Shown in pieces: positions 7,475 to 20,905 of a DNA stretch of 54,592 nt (position 1 is its first letter; each line of letters opens with the position of its first letter). Source of the stretch: Lentisphaerae bacterium GWF2_38_69 (lineage in GTDB: Bacteria > Verrucomicrobiota > Lentisphaeria > Victivallales > GWF2-38-69); contig MHBE01000008.1 in the NCBI GenBank assembly GCA_001803205.1, positions 1 through 54,592 of the forward strand, written 5' to 3'. The notes beneath the pieces are model-generated. The model made no database searches. It was not told where the DNA came from and was given only the letters and a program-made list of their open reading frames with translations. The position numbers were made by a program, and so were the translations under genes.

Positions 7475-8638
7475 ATGGCTCTAGCACCTAAAACCAACCT
7501 GAAGGATAAATTTCACAGCTTATATGGAGTTGATCCTGATGTGATGGCTTACGCGCCGGGAAGGATTGAGATTCTAGGCAACCATACTGACTATAATGAA
7601 GGGCTTGTGCTCAGTTCAGCTACAGACCTCTATACCTATGTAGCTGTAAAAGAGTGCAAGAGCAATAGTGCCAAGATTCACTCTTTTGACATGGCCAATA
7701 CTGAAGAGTTGAAACTTGATGATTCATTGAAAGTAAAGATTCCCGGAAAGTGGTCAAATTACATAAAAGGTGTACTGCTTGAACTTGGGAGACTAGGAAA
7801 ATTGACCCCTTTTAAAGCTGTTATTTACAGCGAAGTGCCTTTGTCTGCAGGGATGAGCAGTTCTGCCGCCCTGGAGGTTTCTTCATGTTTTGCGTTTGGA
7901 AAACTTTTTGGCATTGAATTGGACAAGAAAGAGTGGGCAAAACTGGGGCAGAGGGTAGAGAATAATTACATGGGATTAAAGAGCGGGCTTTTGGATCAGT
8001 TCAGCTCGATTTACGGAGAGAAAGACACCCTGATTTTGTGTGATTTCAGAAAAATTGAAGTAATTGATAAAGTAAAATTTCCTTCTGACTATGTATTTGT
8101 GATAGTTAACTCAATGATAAAGCACAATCTGGTCGAATCAGATTACAATCTTCGCAGGGAAAGCTGTGAAAGGGCTGCCGCCTCAATACAGAAGAAATTT
8201 CCGGAAGTAATGAAACTCAGGGATGTGACTCCTGAAATGCTTGAAGAATGCAGAGGGACAGTTGATTTTACTGACTACAAAAGAGCCGCGCATGTTGTTT
8301 CAGAGGGGGATTTGGTCATCAAAGGCATAGAAGCTCTCAGGAAAGGAGATATTAAGCTGTTCGGTTCATACTTGTATGCCTCTCACGCAAGTTCAAAGGT
8401 CAATTTTGAGAATAGCTGTCCTGAGCTGGATTTCCTGGTTGAAGTTTCAAGAAGCATTCCCGGATGCATTGGAGCAAGGCTGAGCGGCGGAGGCTTTGGC
8501 GGCATATCTATTCATCTGGTAAAAAAAGAGATGGCTGACGATTATAGAAAGCGAATTGCTGTGGCATATAAAACTCAGACTGGTAAAGAACCTCAAACTT
8601 TTGTTTGCGGCGTAGGGTGCGGTGCAGGCGTATACTAA
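7475..8638 (+). CDS. galK: Galactokinase-like GHMP kinase
   Basis: This is probably the ATP-dependent 1-phosphorylation of galactose (Leloir pathway). The three GHMP signatures are in place: PGRIEILGNHTDYNEG (about residues 29-44), PLSAGMSSSAALEVS (the ATP loop, about 122-136), and GARLSGGGFGGISIHLV near residue 335. GLLDQFSS carries the expected catalytic Asp. At 387 residues it has family length. ATG 7475 is preceded by GAGGAAG. The sugar-binding motif reads GNHTDY where classical GalK has GEHTDY, so a Glu that contacts the sugar is Asn; the substrate could differ. No galT or galE is nearby. Confidence 0.88.
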   Translation: MALAPKTNLKDKFHSLYGVDPDVMAYAPGRIEILGNHTDYNEGLVLSSATDLYTYVAVKECKSNSAKIHSFDMANTEELKLDDSLKVKIPGKWSNYIKGVLLELGRLGKLTPFKAVIYSEVPLSAGMSSSAALEVSSCFAFGKLFGIELDKKEWAKLGQRVENNYMGLKSGLLDQFSSIYGEKDTLILCDFRKIEVIDKVKFPSDYVFVIVNSMIKHNLVESDYNLRRESCERAAASIQKKFPEVMKLRDVTPEMLEECRGTVDFTDYKRAAHVVSEGDLVIKGIEALRKGDIKLFGSYLYASHASSKVNFENSCPELDFLVEVSRSIPGCIGARLSGGGFGGISIHLVKKEMADDYRKRIAVAYKTQTGKEPQTFVCGVGCGAGVY

Positions 8639-8738
8639 GTTCATGCTGAACTGGATTTACACCTGAAAAAGCACCCGTAGAAGGATCGTATCACATTGTA
8701 AATATGTGTGGGTGATGGAAGCGTACATATTCATGCAG

Positions 8739-8760
8739 GAGACGCAAAATATTGCGTCTC
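8739..8760. repeat. Hairpin repeat with GAGACGCAA / TTGCGTCTC arms
   Basis: This is a perfect 9-bp inverted repeat around a 4-base loop in the gap between galK and the gcvH-like gene. Arms of this kind (GTAGAGACGCAA family) are widespread as dispersed intergenic repeats in unrelated bacteria. It may also act as a weak terminator between these convergent genes. Confidence 0.6.
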
Positions 8761-8827
8761 TACAAATAGCCTCAACGGACATGTGAAGTAAAAATTTTAG
8801 TGAATACTTCCCTGTGTCGCAGTAATA

Positions 8828-10211: not shown

Positions 10212-10292
10212 ATATTTTCCGGTATCGGATATTGATGTAACTGTAATGTCATTTTATAATTGCTCATATTTATAACTTTTGAGGATCTTGTT

Positions 10293-11906
10293 ATGAATTG
10301 CGAGGCTGGCATAATTGTATCGAGCATAGGAAGCTTGTCCGTTATAATTACACTGGCTGTTCTTTATGCTTTTATAGCCAAGTCGATTATTCCCATAGAG
10401 AAGCTCCGCTCTATTACAACCGGTTTCTTATACGGCCTGATGTGTATGATAATTCCAATGGCAGGGGTATTTTGTAAAGATTACTCTTATACCTTTGACG
10501 GAATGCCAATAATAGTTTCTACTGCAGGTATAATAGGAGGACTTTGGGGTGGTATTGTCTCTTGCGTTATAGGTGTTACATATAAAATTCTAATAGAAAC
10601 ATCAGTTGTCTGGAGCGATATTTCTGTTATTGCCATTGCTGCGATATTTGGAATAGTTTTTTTCTTCTTAAGGAAAAAATATGAAGCTTTAATCAAGCCG
10701 GCTAGTGTTCTTTTGTTTGTCTATATTTTATATGGTATTATTGCTCTAGGCATGATTTTTTTAAACAGGCAAAATCCTGATGTATCTTTTGAGAATCTTA
10801 TTCTGCCAATGCTTATTTTTTTCCCAATCGCAAATTTCTTCCTGATAATACTTCTGGATAATCTTGATAAGATTTTTCTAAGCCATTACGACCTGAAAAA
10901 GCTTAGCAGCAACCTTCAGGAGGCAAATAAAATTGCAAACCTGGGGCAATGGGAGTTTAATGTAATAAACAATCGACTTTCATGGACTGAAGAAGTATTT
11001 CGGATATTTGAAATAATTAACAGGCCTGCAAGAATTACTTATGAATACTTTCTAAGGTTTGTTCATCCTGAAGATGTAGCAAGATTGGAGGAAACTTATG
11101 TTTCTTCTCTAAGAGAAAAGAAGCTTTTCGAAATTGAGCATAGAATAACTACAGAAACAGGCAAATTAAAGTTTGTCCATGAGAGATGCGAAAATTTCTA
11201 TGACCAGAAAGGCAACCCTATTTGTTCAATAGGCATGGTGATGGATATTACTGATCAGATTTTAAGAGAACAACTTATTAAGAAACTCTTTATGCAAAGT
11301 ATCAATGCTGTGTCTAACGCACTTGAAAAGAAAGACCCCTATACCAGGCATCACCAAAGGCAGGTTGCTAATCTAGCTGTTCAGGTAGGCATGGAAATGG
11401 GATACGACAAGGATCGTCTGATAGGGTTATATATTGCCTCGCTTGTACATGATATTGGAAAGGTCGCAATTCCGAATGATATACTTGAAAAAACTGCTCC
11501 TTTAACAACAGAAGAGTATCGAATAATAAGGGAGCATCCGACTACCGGGTATGAGATTTTTAACGATTTTGACTCAAGATGGCCTATAAAGGAAATCATA
11601 TATCAGCATCATGAGAAACTTGATGGCTCCGGTTATCCAAGAGGTTTGAAAGGGGATGCAATTTTAGAAGAGGCAAGAATAATTAGCGTCTGCGATACTT
11701 TTGAAGCGATCGTAAATGACAGGCCATACAGGCAGAAACTAAGCGTCGACAGCGCTATCAAGGTCTTGAGAGACGGCATGAAAGTAAGCTACGATAAAAA
11801 AATATGCTCAATACTTATTGCATTTATAGAGAAAGAGAAAGTTCGCTTCGACACTCTGCCGCCTGAATTCGATAAAATTTATAATGACTATCTGTACAGT
11901 TATTAA
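10293..11906 (+). CDS. Membrane sensor with 5TM (5TMR-LYT), PAS and HD-GYP domains
   Basis: This is a likely cyclic-di-GMP phosphodiesterase. Residues about 1-205 form six or so membrane segments of the 5TM-LYT type (GLWGGIVSCVIGVTYKI, IFGIVFFFLRKKYEAL). A PAS domain follows (ANLGQWEFNVINNRLSWTEE, ending in GMVMDITD). The HD-GYP domain has HD at 386-387, EHPTTGYEIF, QHHEKLDGSGYPRGL with GYP at about 447-449, and DTFEAIVNDRPYR. I chose ATG 10293 because TGAGGA precedes it by seven bases; the frame extends upstream to 10260. The stop overlaps the convergent carboxypeptidase by four bases. The sensed ligand is unknown. Confidence 0.92.
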   Translation: MNCEAGIIVSSIGSLSVIITLAVLYAFIAKSIIPIEKLRSITTGFLYGLMCMIIPMAGVFCKDYSYTFDGMPIIVSTAGIIGGLWGGIVSCVIGVTYKILIETSVVWSDISVIAIAAIFGIVFFFLRKKYEALIKPASVLLFVYILYGIIALGMIFLNRQNPDVSFENLILPMLIFFPIANFFLIILLDNLDKIFLSHYDLKKLSSNLQEANKIANLGQWEFNVINNRLSWTEEVFRIFEIINRPARITYEYFLRFVHPEDVARLEETYVSSLREKKLFEIEHRITTETGKLKFVHERCENFYDQKGNPICSIGMVMDITDQILREQLIKKLFMQSINAVSNALEKKDPYTRHHQRQVANLAVQVGMEMGYDKDRLIGLYIASLVHDIGKVAIPNDILEKTAPLTTEEYRIIREHPTTGYEIFNDFDSRWPIKEIIYQHHEKLDGSGYPRGLKGDAILEEARIISVCDTFEAIVNDRPYRQKLSVDSAIKVLRDGMKVSYDKKICSILIAFIEKEKVRFDTLPPEFDKIYNDYLYSY

Positions 11907-14738: not shown

Positions 14739-16937
14739 ATGCTTAGTATAACTGAGTTTTTGAATTTAATGCCCGAGCTGAAAGCTTCTGATCTTTTTGT
14801 CACGGCTGACAAGAAGCCTATGTTCAAACTCAACTCCGGCCTTGAATCAAATAAATACATGGATTTGGTTACTGAAGAAGAAATAACCAATTTCAGGAAT
14901 TCCATTCTCTCTGAGGAACAAAAGAAACATTATGCAAGATATGGAAATGTGGATGCCAGCTATATGAGTGACAAGAGGGTAAAGTTCAGAATCAACTTTT
15001 TTATTTCCAAATCAAAATCAGAATTAGTTGCCAGAATACTTCCGATTTGGAATTTCAGTTTCAGGGATTTGGGGCTTCCCAAGGCTCTTGAAACGCTCTG
15101 CGATTATCCTTCAGGCCTGATAATAGTATGTGGCGCTGCAGGTGCCGGAAAAACTGTTACCATTTCAGCAATGCTGGATTACATCAACGAAAATTATAAG
15201 TATCATATTTCAACTATTGAAGACCCGATAGAATATGTCCATACAGATAAAAATTCATTAATAAGCCAAAGAGAGATAGGCACAGATGTATTGGATTTTG
15301 AAACCGCGCTAAACAATGTTCTCAGAGTCAGCCCGAATGTAATTATCGTAGGCGAAATGAGGAGCATAGAGTCAATTGATATCGCGATAAGTGCCGCGAT
15401 GAGCGGACATCTGGTAATAACTACTATGCACACGGGCAATGTCATACAGTGCCTGCAAAGGATAAGCAGCAGTTTTTCTGACACTGAAGTCCAAAGAATC
15501 CTTTTGGATCTTTCTTTGTGTTTAAGGGGAATTGTAGCACAAAGACTGGTAAAAAAGCAGGACGGCAGCGGCAAAATTCCTGCTGTTGAATTGCTTAATG
15601 TCACCCCGCTTATTTCAAAGTATATAGCAAATGGAGCTATTTCAGATATTGAAGATGGAATGAGATCTTCTTCAGAAGATATAACTGTAACATTTGACCG
15701 TTATCTGGCAGGTATGAAAAATAATGGAAGTATAACTTTTGAAGAAGCTTACCAGGCTGCGACAAACAAAGATGAATTCAATCTCATTATCGAGGGAATG
15801 GAAACAGGAGTGAGGAGCTTAAAAGCCTCTAAGGATGCTGAAAGCGCTTTTGATTCCAGTGTAGATATGAAGCTTCTCCTGAAAACTGCGCTTTACAATA
15901 ATGCCAGCGACCTGCTACTTACTGCAGGTGCAAAACCCTCCTTAAGAATAAACGGTTCTATTAAATATCTTGAATCAGGTATACTCGGGTCGATTGATAC
16001 AAAACGGCTGCTTTTCAGTATTCTATCAAGAAACCAGCGAGCTATGTTTGAAGAAAATAAGGAAATAGATCTGGCTCTTAGTTTACATATTGAATCCAAG
16101 AGGTTTGGAAACCGGAAAAACAGCCGATTCAGGGTCAATGGTTTTTATCAGAAAGGAAATATCGCAGCTGCGATAAGGTTAGTTTCTGAGAGGATACCAA
16201 CTCCTGAAGAGCTTCATCTGCCCAAAGCTCTTGTCAATATTATAAATAGGACAAGCGGTTTAATTCTAGTTACCGGTCCAACTGGGCATGGAAAGAGCAC
16301 TACTCTTGCAAGCTTGATAAACCAGATAAATCAGACTCGTTCAGCCCATATTATCAGCATTGAAGACCCGATTGAATATGTGCATGTGAACAAAGAGGCA
16401 ATAATAGAACAGAGAGAAATTTATTCTGATACAAAAAGTTATGCTAATGGGCTTAAATATATTCTGAGACAGAATCCTGATATAATAATGATTGGTGAAA
16501 TGCGCGACCCTGAAACCATAGCAATAGCTCTTACTGCTGCCGAATTGGGACATCTGGTGCTTTCGACTCTCCATACCGGAAGTTCCTATTCAAGTATTAA
16601 CAGGATAATAGATTCGTTTCCAAGTGAACAGCAAAATCAGATAAGAAATCAGCTTGCAGGTTCGTTACTCTGTGTTACATCTCAGAGACTGCTGCCTTCG
16701 GCTGACAATAGCTTCAGAGTTGCGGCGTTTGAGGTTCTTCTCGGAACTACGGCAATTAAGGCTCTTATCAGGGAAGCGAAAATCCATTTGATACCAACAA
16801 CGATTGAAACAGGAGCCAAAGACGGCATGATAACTATGGATATGGCATTGAATGATTTATATAAAAAAAATCTAATTTCAAAAGAAAGCATGGCAAATAT
16901 TCTTACTGACATAGATTACACGCAGAAAAAATCATGA
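14739..16937 (+). CDS. Double PilT-type ATPase (two fused twitching-motility ATPase domains)
   Basis: PilT hexamers power pilus retraction. This 732-residue protein has two complete secretion-ATPase units. Domain 1 (about 1-360) has Walker A GAAGAGKT (132-139), Asp box IEDPIEYVH, Walker B VIIVGEMR (about 201) and His box HLVITTMHTG. Domain 2 (about 370-732) has Walker A GPTGHGKST (about 512), the same Asp box, Walker B IIMIGEMRDPE and HLVLSTLHTG, plus the PilT C-terminal block LIREAKIHLIPTTIETGAK. Domain 1 lacks that block. Classical PilT is about 350-380 residues. The stop overlaps aroB by four bases, and dprA follows. Confidence 0.92.
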   Translation: MLSITEFLNLMPELKASDLFVTADKKPMFKLNSGLESNKYMDLVTEEEITNFRNSILSEEQKKHYARYGNVDASYMSDKRVKFRINFFISKSKSELVARILPIWNFSFRDLGLPKALETLCDYPSGLIIVCGAAGAGKTVTISAMLDYINENYKYHISTIEDPIEYVHTDKNSLISQREIGTDVLDFETALNNVLRVSPNVIIVGEMRSIESIDIAISAAMSGHLVITTMHTGNVIQCLQRISSSFSDTEVQRILLDLSLCLRGIVAQRLVKKQDGSGKIPAVELLNVTPLISKYIANGAISDIEDGMRSSSEDITVTFDRYLAGMKNNGSITFEEAYQAATNKDEFNLIIEGMETGVRSLKASKDAESAFDSSVDMKLLLKTALYNNASDLLLTAGAKPSLRINGSIKYLESGILGSIDTKRLLFSILSRNQRAMFEENKEIDLALSLHIESKRFGNRKNSRFRVNGFYQKGNIAAAIRLVSERIPTPEELHLPKALVNIINRTSGLILVTGPTGHGKSTTLASLINQINQTRSAHIISIEDPIEYVHVNKEAIIEQREIYSDTKSYANGLKYILRQNPDIIMIGEMRDPETIAIALTAAELGHLVLSTLHTGSSYSSINRIIDSFPSEQQNQIRNQLAGSLLCVTSQRLLPSADNSFRVAAFEVLLGTTAIKALIREAKIHLIPTTIETGAKDGMITMDMALNDLYKKNLISKESMANILTDIDYTQKKS

Positions 16938-18022
16938 AAAAACTAAGAGTAAAACTTAAAGAAAATCCTTACGATATATGTATTTCCGAAAACTCTGAAG
17001 GACTCTTTTCTAAAATATTAGCACCGGCTCTTAAAGAAAAGAAAGTCTTTTTGGTTTCAGATTCAAATGTATATGAAATTTACGGAAAGAGTTTTTCTGA
17101 ATATCTTAAATCAGTATCTTATTTCTCAGGTGATTATATTTTTCAAGCAGGAGAAACTAGCAAAAACTTCCATACTTTTGAATGTCTTGTCAGGAGCATG
17201 GTACATGCGGGATTGGACAGAAAGTCGATTGTACTGGCTTTGGGGGGAGGAGTATGCGGCGATATAGCCGGTTTTGCTGCTTCCACTTATATGAGAGGAA
17301 TAGACTATATACAGCTTCCTACGACTCTTCTTTCAATGGTTGACTCCAGCGTTGGAGGCAAAACTGCCATAGATATTCCCGAAGGAAAGAATTTGATTGG
17401 AGCTTTTCACCAGCCGAAAAGTGTCCTAATAGATGTTTCCAAACTTAATTCATTGCCCGAAAGAGAGTTCTCAGCAGGAATGGCAGAAGTTATAAAATAC
17501 GGAATGATTCTGGACAAAGATTTTTTCTATTTTATCAAACAAAATGCAGGAAAGATTAAAGACAAATCGGGAAAAGCGCTTACTGAATTAATAAGCAGAA
17601 GCTGCTTTTTGAAAGCAGCAGTTGTTTCCGAAGACGAAAAGGAAGAGTCTTTGAGGGCTATTTTGAATTTTGGTCATACATTCGGACACTCTCTGGAAAT
17701 GGTTTCATCTTTTAACACTTTTTTGCATGGCGAAGCAGTTGCTCTGGGAATGCTTATGGCGTGTGAACTGGGCGTAAATCTTGAGCTTGTCAAAAAGGAT
17801 ATAACAATTGAACTAGAAAACCTTTTAAAAGAATTTCACCTGCCTGTAAGAATTGGAATGAATATAGATCCTGAAAATATCTATCAGGCAATGTTCGCCG
17901 ACAAAAAAACAAAAAGCGGGAAAATAAATTTTGTAGTGCCTGAAAGAGATATTGGGAAAATAAGAATTATTTCAGGTATTCCAAAGGATGCTGTCATAAG
18001 GGCAATAGAGGCGTATTTATGA
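16934..18022 (+). CDS. aroB: 3-dehydroquinate synthase
   Basis: This is the second step of the shikimate pathway, converting DAHP to 3-dehydroquinate with NAD and a divalent metal. It has LALGGGVCGDIAGFAASTYM (NAD site), QLPTTLLSMVDSSVGGKTAI, EVIKYGMI, and the metal-binding histidines in NFGHTFGHSLE and FLHGEAVALGM. At 362 residues it has family length. It is coupled to the double PilT gene (ATGA overlap) and to dprA (ATGA overlap). aroB next to pilus genes is known from other bacteria, so this linkage need not mean a shared function. Confidence 0.96.
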   Translation: MKKLRVKLKENPYDICISENSEGLFSKILAPALKEKKVFLVSDSNVYEIYGKSFSEYLKSVSYFSGDYIFQAGETSKNFHTFECLVRSMVHAGLDRKSIVLALGGGVCGDIAGFAASTYMRGIDYIQLPTTLLSMVDSSVGGKTAIDIPEGKNLIGAFHQPKSVLIDVSKLNSLPEREFSAGMAEVIKYGMILDKDFFYFIKQNAGKIKDKSGKALTELISRSCFLKAAVVSEDEKEESLRAILNFGHTFGHSLEMVSSFNTFLHGEAVALGMLMACELGVNLELVKKDITIELENLLKEFHLPVRIGMNIDPENIYQAMFADKKTKSGKINFVVPERDIGKIRIISGIPKDAVIRAIEAYL

Positions 18023-19137
18023 CTGAAAGAGAAGCGATAATTGCTCTTAATATGCTTAATGGTTTCGGTTCTTCCAGATATAAGTCCCTGCTTGCCGCGT
18101 TCGGTTCAATAGAATCAGCCCTTGCCGCGTCGACAAAGAGTCTTTCCACTGTTGAAGGCATAGGAGATACGCTTGCTCAAAATCTCAGTAATTGGAAAAA
18201 TTCAATTGACCTTAATAGAGAGCTTGAAATGCTTAACCGCAGCGGGGCGACAATAACTACGCTTATTGACGAGAATTATCCATCCCAGTTGAAAGAGATC
18301 AAGGATATGCCCCTATGCCTCTACATCAGAGGAGAGTTAAATGCTGATTTTAATAATACTATAGCTGTAGTGGGTTCAAGAAAAATGACTTCATACGGCC
18401 GGGAAGTTTGCGATTTTATTGTGTCAGGTTTATCCTGTGCCGGATGGACGATTGTCTCTGGTCTGGCAATGGGAATCGATGGATCTGCTCATCAGGCTGT
18501 TTTGGATGCAAAAGGAGCTACAATCGGAGTTTTGGGCGGAGGACTTGCGAGATTTCACCCTCAGGAACATGTAGAACTTGCAAGAAAAATGATTGAATCA
18601 GGCGGAGGAGTAATAACAGAGTTCCCAATGGAATTTTCTCCAAACAGGCGTTCTTTTCCAATGAGAAACAGGATAATATCAGGACTTTCCAGGGGAGTTC
18701 TAGTAATTGAAGCAGGGATTCAGAGTGGCGCTTTGATTACAGTAGACTTTGCTCTCGAACAGAATCGACAGGTTTTCGCGATTCCGGGAAGAATAAACAA
18801 TCCTTCTTCACAAGGCTGCAATAAGCTTATAAAGAACGGGGCAAAACTTGTAGAGAATATAGATGATATTTTTGAAGAATTTGAATTTCTGCCCGGATTT
18901 GTGCCTTTTGATAAAAACCAGAAAACAGATTCCTCTTCTGAAAAAGATTTTCGCAATCTTTCTTTATCCCAGAATGAAGTCAAGATACTTGAATCCTTGA
19001 AACTGGAAGAAAAAAGAGTCGATGTTATTGCGGCAGAGACAGCGCTTCCTATCGGCTGCCTTCTAGCTGTTTTACAGCAGATGGAATCCAGAAAAATCAT
19101 TAAACAGCTTCCCGGCAAGCTATATAAACTCTTTTGA
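18019..19137 (+). CDS. dprA: DNA processing protein DprA
   Basis: DprA binds incoming single-stranded DNA and loads RecA during natural transformation. The N-terminal part has a helix-hairpin-helix (VEGIGDTLAQNLS). The Rossmann core shows AVVGSRKMTSYGR, SGLAMGIDGSAH, LGGGLARFHP, ITEFPM, FPMRNRIISGLSRGVLVIEA and GALITVDFALEQNR. A winged-helix tail (about residues 310-372, ending KQLPGKLYKLF) closes it. It overlaps aroB by four bases. In one operon with a pilus ATPase it points to DNA uptake, although no other competence genes are in the window. Confidence 0.95.
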   Translation: MTEREAIIALNMLNGFGSSRYKSLLAAFGSIESALAASTKSLSTVEGIGDTLAQNLSNWKNSIDLNRELEMLNRSGATITTLIDENYPSQLKEIKDMPLCLYIRGELNADFNNTIAVVGSRKMTSYGREVCDFIVSGLSCAGWTIVSGLAMGIDGSAHQAVLDAKGATIGVLGGGLARFHPQEHVELARKMIESGGGVITEFPMEFSPNRRSFPMRNRIISGLSRGVLVIEAGIQSGALITVDFALEQNRQVFAIPGRINNPSSQGCNKLIKNGAKLVENIDDIFEEFEFLPGFVPFDKNQKTDSSSEKDFRNLSLSQNEVKILESLKLEEKRVDVIAAETALPIGCLLAVLQQMESRKIIKQLPGKLYKLF

Positions 19138-19216: not shown

Positions 19217-20905
19217 ATGAAGCTTAAGAAGAAATTTACAATCATATTTATTTCTGCAATAATTATTTTTGCAGTGCTCAATTACTGCATTCAGTATTTT
19301 ATTATAGTGCCAAGCTATGAAAGGATTGATAAATTTCTATCTATACAAGATATACATAGAGTGGAACTGGCAATGAATTTCATGAATGATAATCTGCAGA
19401 GGCTGGCTGTTGATTATGGCATATGGGATGACGCATATGAATATCTATCTTTAAGAAATGGGGAATTTATAGAGAAAAACCTGTCTGAAAGTACTTTTGA
19501 GAGCAATGATGTGGATTTTATTTTAATATTCGATTTGGATGAAAACCTCGTATGGGGAAATGGGATTACTCCAAAGGCTGAAGATTCTCACCCGAATATT
19601 GAAGATTTAATTTCTGTTATCAAAAAAGATTACAGTGGAACTTTGTCTAATCATAGAAACTTGGGCAAGCAGAGCTTTAGCGGATTGATAAAAATGGATG
19701 GTTTTATCGTGGCACTGGGAACTACTTCTATTTGTCCTTCTAAAAGCATTGTAGATTCCATAGGCACGATTGTTATGGCAAAAGTTATGGACTATGAAGA
19801 ACTTAAAGATTTAGCAAAAATTGTTATACTCGATTTCTCTATCCGCCCTGTTGATGAGAAAGATAAGATGCAGATCTCCAATAAGCCGATCGATAATGAA
19901 AATACTTTCAGCGTAATTCCTGTATCAGATCAGGTTTTTGAAGTTGTCGCTATGTATCCTGATATAAAAGGGAATATTGAATTCAAGATAAAGGCAATTG
20001 TTTCAAGAGAGATGTTTATAAAATCAAGGAATATTGCAAATATAATGTTTTTTGTTTTCCTTTGTTCAGGCATTGTCCTGTTGGTGATTATCGCGTTTGC
20101 CACAGAGCATATGATTATTTCTCCTTTAATAAAAATAACTGAATATGCAAAAAAAATCAGAGTAAAAAAAGATTACACTCAAACGCTGTCTCTCAAAAAT
20201 AGAGACGAAATAGGACTTCTTAACAGTGAATTCAATCAGCTTTTAAGCGAAATCAAAGACAATAGCGACAGCCTTGAAGAACTTGTAAGAAACAAGACCG
20301 AAGAAGTTCACCAGTCTAGAACTGAAATGGTTTACAGACTGGCATCCGCGGCAGAGGAGAAAGATTATTCTACCGGTTTACATCTCAAGAGGATGTATTT
20401 GTACACTAAACTTCTTGCGTCCAAATGCAATATTCCTGATGAATACGCAGAACTTATCTCCCTCGGAGCTATTTTGCATGATGTCGGGAAAATAGGGATT
20501 CCTGACAGCATACTTCTTAAACCTGGCAAACTGACCCCTGATGAGTATGCGATAATCAAGACTCATACCCTTCTTGGAGGTAAAATCCTGGAAAACGGCA
20601 ATTCAAATCTAATCATTACAGCTCATGATATAGCCCTTCATCATCATGAAAGATATGATGGCACTGGCTACCCTCACAGTCTTAAAGCAGATAATATTCC
20701 GCTACCAGCAAGAATAGTTGCTGTTATTGATGTTTTTGACGCTCTTATATCAAAAAGATCTTACAAGGACGCCTGGGATATAAAACAGATTATAAAATTT
20801 TTTAATGAAGAGAAAGGAAGAATGTTTGATCCCCAGATAACTAATTTATTTTTGCTGGATATTGACAGTTTTATTAGAATTAGAGAAAAATATGCGGACA
20901 TTTGA
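19217..20905 (+). CDS. CHASE4-HAMP-HD-GYP signalling protein
   Basis: This is a likely cyclic-di-GMP phosphodiesterase with an external sensor. A first membrane helix (about 7-29) precedes a roughly 240-residue extracytoplasmic domain with the CHASE4-like DYGIWDDAYEYLSLRNGEFI. A second helix (about 277-299) leads to a HAMP linker (ISPLIKITEYAKKIRV, DEIGLLNSEFNQLL) and a short coiled coil. HD-GYP follows: LHDVGKIGIPDSIL, KTHTLLGGKIL, HHHERYDGTGYPHSL and FDALISKRSYK. ATG 19217 has only a weak ribosome site. A gap of 79 bases separates it from dprA. Confidence 0.92.
   Translation: MKLKKKFTIIFISAIIIFAVLNYCIQYFIIVPSYERIDKFLSIQDIHRVELAMNFMNDNLQRLAVDYGIWDDAYEYLSLRNGEFIEKNLSESTFESNDVDFILIFDLDENLVWGNGITPKAEDSHPNIEDLISVIKKDYSGTLSNHRNLGKQSFSGLIKMDGFIVALGTTSICPSKSIVDSIGTIVMAKVMDYEELKDLAKIVILDFSIRPVDEKDKMQISNKPIDNENTFSVIPVSDQVFEVVAMYPDIKGNIEFKIKAIVSREMFIKSRNIANIMFFVFLCSGIVLLVIIAFATEHMIISPLIKITEYAKKIRVKKDYTQTLSLKNRDEIGLLNSEFNQLLSEIKDNSDSLEELVRNKTEEVHQSRTEMVYRLASAAEEKDYSTGLHLKRMYLYTKLLASKCNIPDEYAELISLGAILHDVGKIGIPDSILLKPGKLTPDEYAIIKTHTLLGGKILENGNSNLIITAHDIALHHHERYDGTGYPHSLKADNIPLPARIVAVIDVFDALISKRSYKDAWDIKQIIKFFNEEKGRMFDPQITNLFLLDIDSFIRIREKYADI

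Follow-up and report, generated by a model that had tools for sequence, protein, structure and literature searches.

A conserved PilU-like/PilT-like tandem ATPase in the class Lentisphaeria, probably a type IV pilus retraction motor

Members of the TIGR01420 family usually carry one ATPase domain per chain and form homohexamers, but the window analyzed here, a stretch of 54,592 nucleotides from the 3.1-Mb draft genome of a Lentisphaerae bacterium, encodes a 732-amino-acid chain with two such domains. This locus raises the questions of whether the double motor is genuine, from which lineages its two halves derive, and how a chain of this kind could be built into a pilus machine.

Two ATPase domains in one chain

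The gene (positions 14739..16937) was delimited from the open reading frame list, profile matches, and orthologues, and encodes a tandem retraction-type ATPase composed of a PilU-like domain 1, a linker, and a PilT-like domain 2; its parts and the two genes that follow it (aroB and dprA) lie on the forward strand. HMMER searches matched TIGR01420 (PilT_fam) to two stretches of the chain with a total of 734 bits against a cutoff of 319.1, and the Pfam T2SSE profile also matched two stretches. The Walker A, Asp, Walker B, and His boxes were all found in each domain, which bears out the original prediction, made from the sequence alone, of two complete secretion ATPase domains in one polypeptide. 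Domain 1 (residues 1 to 356; 14739..15806), defined by alignments, trees, and a structure model, contains the Walker A motif GAAGAGKT (residues 132 to 139; 15132..15155), an Asp box (IEDPIEY), the Walker B motif NVIIVGEMRS with the catalytic Glu206 (15336..15365), and the His box GHLVITTMHTG with His224 and His231 (15405..15437). The inter-domain linker (residues 357 to 375; 15807..15863) was placed from the model and the orthologue alignment, and mostly 20 to 26 amino acids separate the columns of residues 354 and 377 among the orthologues. Domain 2 (residues 376 to 732; 15864..16934), supported by the profile match, the alignment to PilT, trees, and the model, contains the Walker A motif GPTGHGKS (residues 513 to 520; 16275..16298), the same Asp box, the Walker B motif DIIMIGEMRD with the catalytic Glu587 (16479..16508), the His box GHLVLSTLHT with His605 and His612 (16548..16577), and the AIRNLIRE retraction motif, here AIKALIRE (16752..16775), in which Arg678 is found in 127/127 orthologues and Glu or Asp at 679 in 126/127. 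The two Walker A motifs had been predicted to start at about residues 132 and 512 and do start at 132 and 513. That of domain 1 is deviant, as had also been anticipated: GATGSGKS is the class consensus, and GAAGAGKT is a lineage-specific variant.

Domain 1 had been described as lacking the PilT C-terminal block, a claim that did not survive alignment to known motors. Its residues 2 to 353 match Aquifex aeolicus PilT (2gsz, 2 to 353) along the whole length, its residues 5 to 355 match PilU (9n32, 24 to 374) with 212.6 bits, and the departure is confined to the AIRNLIRE motif, for which the window has LISKYIAN and the class consensus TPLVRKLIA. Domain 2 residues 377 to 714 match PilT (6ojx, 24 to 353) with 303 bits, and this half resembles PilT (6ojx and 2gsz) over its full length with all motifs, AIRNLIRE included. 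PilT itself differs in being a stand-alone protein of ∼350 to 380 amino acids that forms a homohexamer, whereas the fusion has a second ATPase at the N terminus of domain 2. In a structure search, the matches to PilT and PilU chains spanned roughly the length of a single domain, and the two modeled halves share their succession of helices and strands.

Conservation of the catalytic residues was counted over 127 aligned orthologues. The Walker A lysine is present in 127/127 in both domains, the Walker B glutamate in 125 (domain 1) and 126 (domain 2), the Asp-box glutamate in 126 and 127, and the two histidines in 124 and 123 for domain 1 and in 127 and 126 for domain 2. The catalytic glutamate of domain 2 is thus kept in all but one of the orthologues, so the original prediction is not refuted by absence of this residue in relatives. 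Judged from these motifs, both halves look like working ATPases across the class, and the suggestion in the original prediction that one half is regulatory lacks sequence support because both keep essentially all catalytic motifs. A reading in which domain 2 alone works as a motor and domain 1 has a regulatory or structural role is distinctly unlikely given the near-complete retention of the domain 1 lysine, glutamates, and histidines, although it can draw on several features: the rate of evolution is higher in domain 1 (mean p-distance, 0.53 versus 0.41 in domain 2), AIRNLIRE is missing from domain 1, and the in vitro ATPase activity of Vibrio cholerae PilU is likewise weak (PMC13142100). It can also cite the family of the window, a diverged branch whose domain 1 carries GAAGAGKT and GEMRS, with a tyrosine in place of the second histidine (His231) in one member (G001). 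In this family, domain 1 has diverged further than domain 2 and may account for a smaller share of the ATP hydrolysis. One further fused motor (L219; G116:C84:7152-9104) has decayed motifs, with SDMHE instead of GEMRD in domain 1, and is possibly a degenerating copy.

Distribution and gene neighborhood of the fusion

Lentisphaeria is a class of mostly uncultured bacteria, and the fused architecture was found in 142 of its 198 genomes, in 60 of the 82 high-quality genomes of the class, and in 26 of 41 close relatives of the source genome. This distribution rules out an assembly artifact or a one-off fusion, and a search for PilT-PilT fusions across genomes, which the original prediction had proposed as a check, thus recovered a genuine, conserved two-ATPase chain with nonidentical halves. 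Among 388 sampled genomes of the phylum, 90 fusion matches were obtained, all inside the class and none outside; since the class comprises only 198 genomes, at least 190 of the sampled genomes lie outside it and have no match. No fused match was found in 42 genomes from other groups that were reached through a GTDB species scan, a partial sampling of the phyla beyond its own. The scan set held 44 genomes, from which we removed a class member (G050), which carries the fusion with the same match place and score as G298 of the same order, and a near relative (G045) whose contig and match are identical to those of G001 and hence already counted. Gene-level checks of the scan loci found separate open reading frames only, apart from L039, which is the G001 locus. 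Adjacent PilT genes in Armatimonadetes (L040), Planctomycetota, and Ruminococcus were rejected as fusions for being separate open reading frames, and further fused motor pairs in the relatives (PilB-PilT or other), hinted at by long open frames, resolved into separate genes upon gene calling. In a plasmid search, the examined match has pilT and pilU as separate genes. Seven genomes (G196, G211, G273, G290, G454, G458, and G170) encode two full fused motors each, the second copy being ∼40 to 42% identical to the window protein.

In the window, the fusion gene is followed by aroB (3-dehydroquinate synthase; 16934..18022) and dprA (18019..19137), and the predicted 4-base overlaps were confirmed, at 16934 between the tandem ATPase gene and aroB and at 18019 between aroB and dprA. 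From these overlaps it had been proposed that the fusion is expressed together with DNA uptake. A dprA gene adjoins the fusion at 2 of 64 loci, the window and G001 (L143), which belong to the same family, and aroB does so at only one, the window. Elsewhere the neighbors include ispF, dnaG, gatB, and genes for an aminotransferase, a transporter, and hydrolases. Neither a conserved gene neighborhood of the fusion nor a linkage to pilus genes was found at the loci examined, which also do not show the consistent association with dprA or com genes expected of a competence operon. ComEC is encoded in the source genome and in 39 of 41 relatives, whether the fusion is present or absent. The proposed link to DNA uptake is unsupported because the dprA and aroB linkage is local and ComEC is independent of the fusion. 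We regard it as highly improbable that the fusion is a DNA uptake motor coexpressed with dprA for natural transformation, for which the overlaps in the window, the dprA gene after the fusion in G001, and the presence of ComEC could be cited, and against which stand the rarity of both neighbors, the variety of genes that replace them, and the near-universal occurrence of ComEC.

Several other genes were observed around these loci. At L222, ispF (YgbB) lies directly downstream of the fused motor (8345-8824), and a related same-strand downstream open reading frame of ∼157 to 162 amino acids recurs at roughly eight fusion loci. In the window, a CHASE4-HAMP-HD-GYP gene (19217-20905), similar to c-di-GMP phosphodiesterases, directly follows dprA, and a related open reading frame (10260-11906; 33% identical) is found ∼7 kb upstream of it.

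Origin of the two halves

Phylogenetic analysis of the separated halves was densest in a tree of 95 rows with 22 per half (IQ-TREE, LG+C20+F+G4). Domain 1 and domain 2 were each monophyletic (100/100), and a branch with support of 100/99 split them, placing domain 2 with PilT and domain 1 with PilU, Thermus PilT2, and a stand-alone Verrucomicrobiota family. Forcing all domain 1 and domain 2 sequences into one clade cost 50 log units (AU test, P = 0.00022), and internal duplication as the origin of the halves was rejected on this tree. The same constraint gave P = 0.042 in a careful tree with fewer tandem rows, the densest tree having twice as many, many of them from outside the order; in a quick tree the single clade was not rejected (P = 0.71), and the free search there had missed a better tree. 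With the smaller or quicker trees being weaker, the evidence that the halves derive from two different PilT family lineages is good but depends on a single model and choice of taxa.

Within its region of the tree, domain 1 forms a long-branch clade of its own, and the PilU references are closest to it in the densest tree (90/63, or 93/91 with one further row), so its closest kinship with PilU itself is only moderately supported. Domain 1 resembles PilU over the full length and in having no AIRNLIRE. Thermus thermophilus PilT2 (5fl3) and the stand-alone PilU-side proteins of Verrucomicrobiota share the tree region of domain 1 but are unfused. Pairwise distances of the two halves are correlated (r = 0.86) and each half forms one clade, the pattern that a single fusion event followed by joint inheritance of both halves should leave. 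The original prediction had suggested asking whether the domain pair forms its own clade with conserved dprA linkage, and although each half was recovered as a clade, the dprA linkage was not. A stand-alone PilU-side ATPase of 363 amino acids with the Walker A motif GTTGSGKS (L125, 8405-9496; G000:C12) is widespread in the order and has relatives in other Verrucomicrobiota. A stand-alone PilU-side protein of the window's own genome (G000:C12:20419-21483) is 36% identical to domain 1.

A candidate retraction motor and its possible architecture

PilU is a retraction ATPase that acts only when PilT is present (PMC6762196 and PMC6821130), and the kinship of the two halves suggests that the fusion is probably a PilU-like/PilT-like retraction motor. 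PilB-like matches, representing the extension ATPase, were found in 41/41 genomes of the relatives (E ≤ 1e-60), all of them just below the strict TIGR02538 cutoff. Three genomes estimated as 98 to 99% complete (G005, G013, and G028) have PilB-like genes, and apart from the fusion, a single divergent gene pair makes up all their PilT family content found at E ≤ 1e-30, which fits the fusion as a main retraction motor there. Other arrangements were also seen in the order. Two genomes (G034 and G039) have PilB-like genes but, at E ≤ 1e-30, lack both the fusion and a PilT linked to PilB, so that the divergent pair alone could serve as their retraction motor. This pair of adjacent PilT-like genes recurs in the order (L124, 9471-11926; G000:C62:25506-27619); the gene that is read first is extended at the N terminus by at least ∼100 amino acids, has the Walker A motif GPLGSGKT, lacks a GExR Walker B motif, and may encode a noncanonical or inactive ATPase. 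At another locus, two PilB-like genes are followed by PilT (L123; G000:C5:12912-17365), and many genomes of the order share this PilB-PilB-PilT arrangement.

How the two halves would be arranged can be considered in the light of PilT and PilU in other bacteria. PilU is a separate protein whose gene is usually downstream of pilT (PMC6762196), an order also found in an Acinetobacter record. The fusion is reversed with respect to this operon, since the PilU-like half comes first and its C terminus leads through the linker into the N terminus of the PilT-like half. V. cholerae PilT and PilU form independent, interacting homohexamers rather than heterohexamers (PMC6821130). The discussion of PMC13142100, citing other studies, reports PilU-like density directly below PilT in tomography of the V. 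cholerae machine, modeling in which the PilU C-terminal domain sits on two PilT N-terminal domains, and a salt bridge between PilT K36 and PilU D366; the basis for stacking is thus tomography together with modeling. The position of PilT K36 is a lysine in domain 2 of the window but a lysine or arginine in only 11/27 orthologues, and so is not conserved as a basic residue. The order of PilU-like then PilT-like half matches this published stack, and an arrangement of six chains in two tethered rings is therefore favored.

We hypothesize that the fused PilU-like and PilT-like ATPases power type IV pilus retraction, with six chains assembling into two stacked hexameric rings, one PilT-like and one PilU-like. 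The PilT-like ring would engage the PilC platform, the PilU-like ring would sit directly beneath it, and the linker of ∼20 residues would substitute for the noncovalent contact between the PilU C-terminal and PilT N-terminal domains. Fusion would set a 1:1 stoichiometry, such that the PilU-like ring would be obligatorily coupled to PilT and add force. We give the two tethered rings an even chance of being the true arrangement, with the variable K36 position, the undefined domain orientation in the structure model, the unstable coevolution signal, and the absence of pilus gene linkage at the examined loci weighing against them. The original prediction had instead pictured a hexameric motor built as a trimer of tandem units; with the halves as assigned here, this would be a single-ring pseudohexamer of three chains with alternating PilU-like and PilT-like positions, which we find somewhat unlikely. 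The contact between the C-terminal domain of one subunit and the N-terminal domain of the next, the strongest interface in PilU rings (∼40 nM; PMC13142100), could also join covalently linked neighbors, the C3 OCOCOC states possible for PilT and PilU rings (PMC6858323 and PMC13142100) have the symmetry expected of such a ring, and linker length varies little. Nevertheless, the halves fall with the two lineages that form independent homohexamers in V. cholerae, and the two halves were not confidently packed against each other in the structure prediction: the AlphaFold model of the tandem (mean pLDDT, 84.8) had a pTM of 0.51 with the domain orientation undefined and low confidence over residues 353 to 367, in a monomer run for which the domain 1 alignment was shallow. 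In the coevolution analysis between the halves, aimed at telling one ring from two, the apparent top pair (324-413) lost rank under other residue alphabets.

The full picture, a covalent PilU-PilT double-ring motor of six two-motor chains with an obligatory 1:1 ratio, fixed early in one class and needing no separate PilU, is offered tentatively, at slightly less than even likelihood. A full-text search of the literature collection used here found no description of a PilU-like/PilT-like fusion. The component parts are known; what appears to be new is their covalent combination, which occurs widely in the class. The fusion bears on the question of how the two ATPases are accommodated in a single pilus apparatus, and a natural joining of both lineages is evolutionary evidence that the two act as one unit. 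As a single polypeptide with fixed stoichiometry, it would open the architecture to cryo-electron microscopy and half-by-half mutation, and may offer a natural test of how the two motors fit together.
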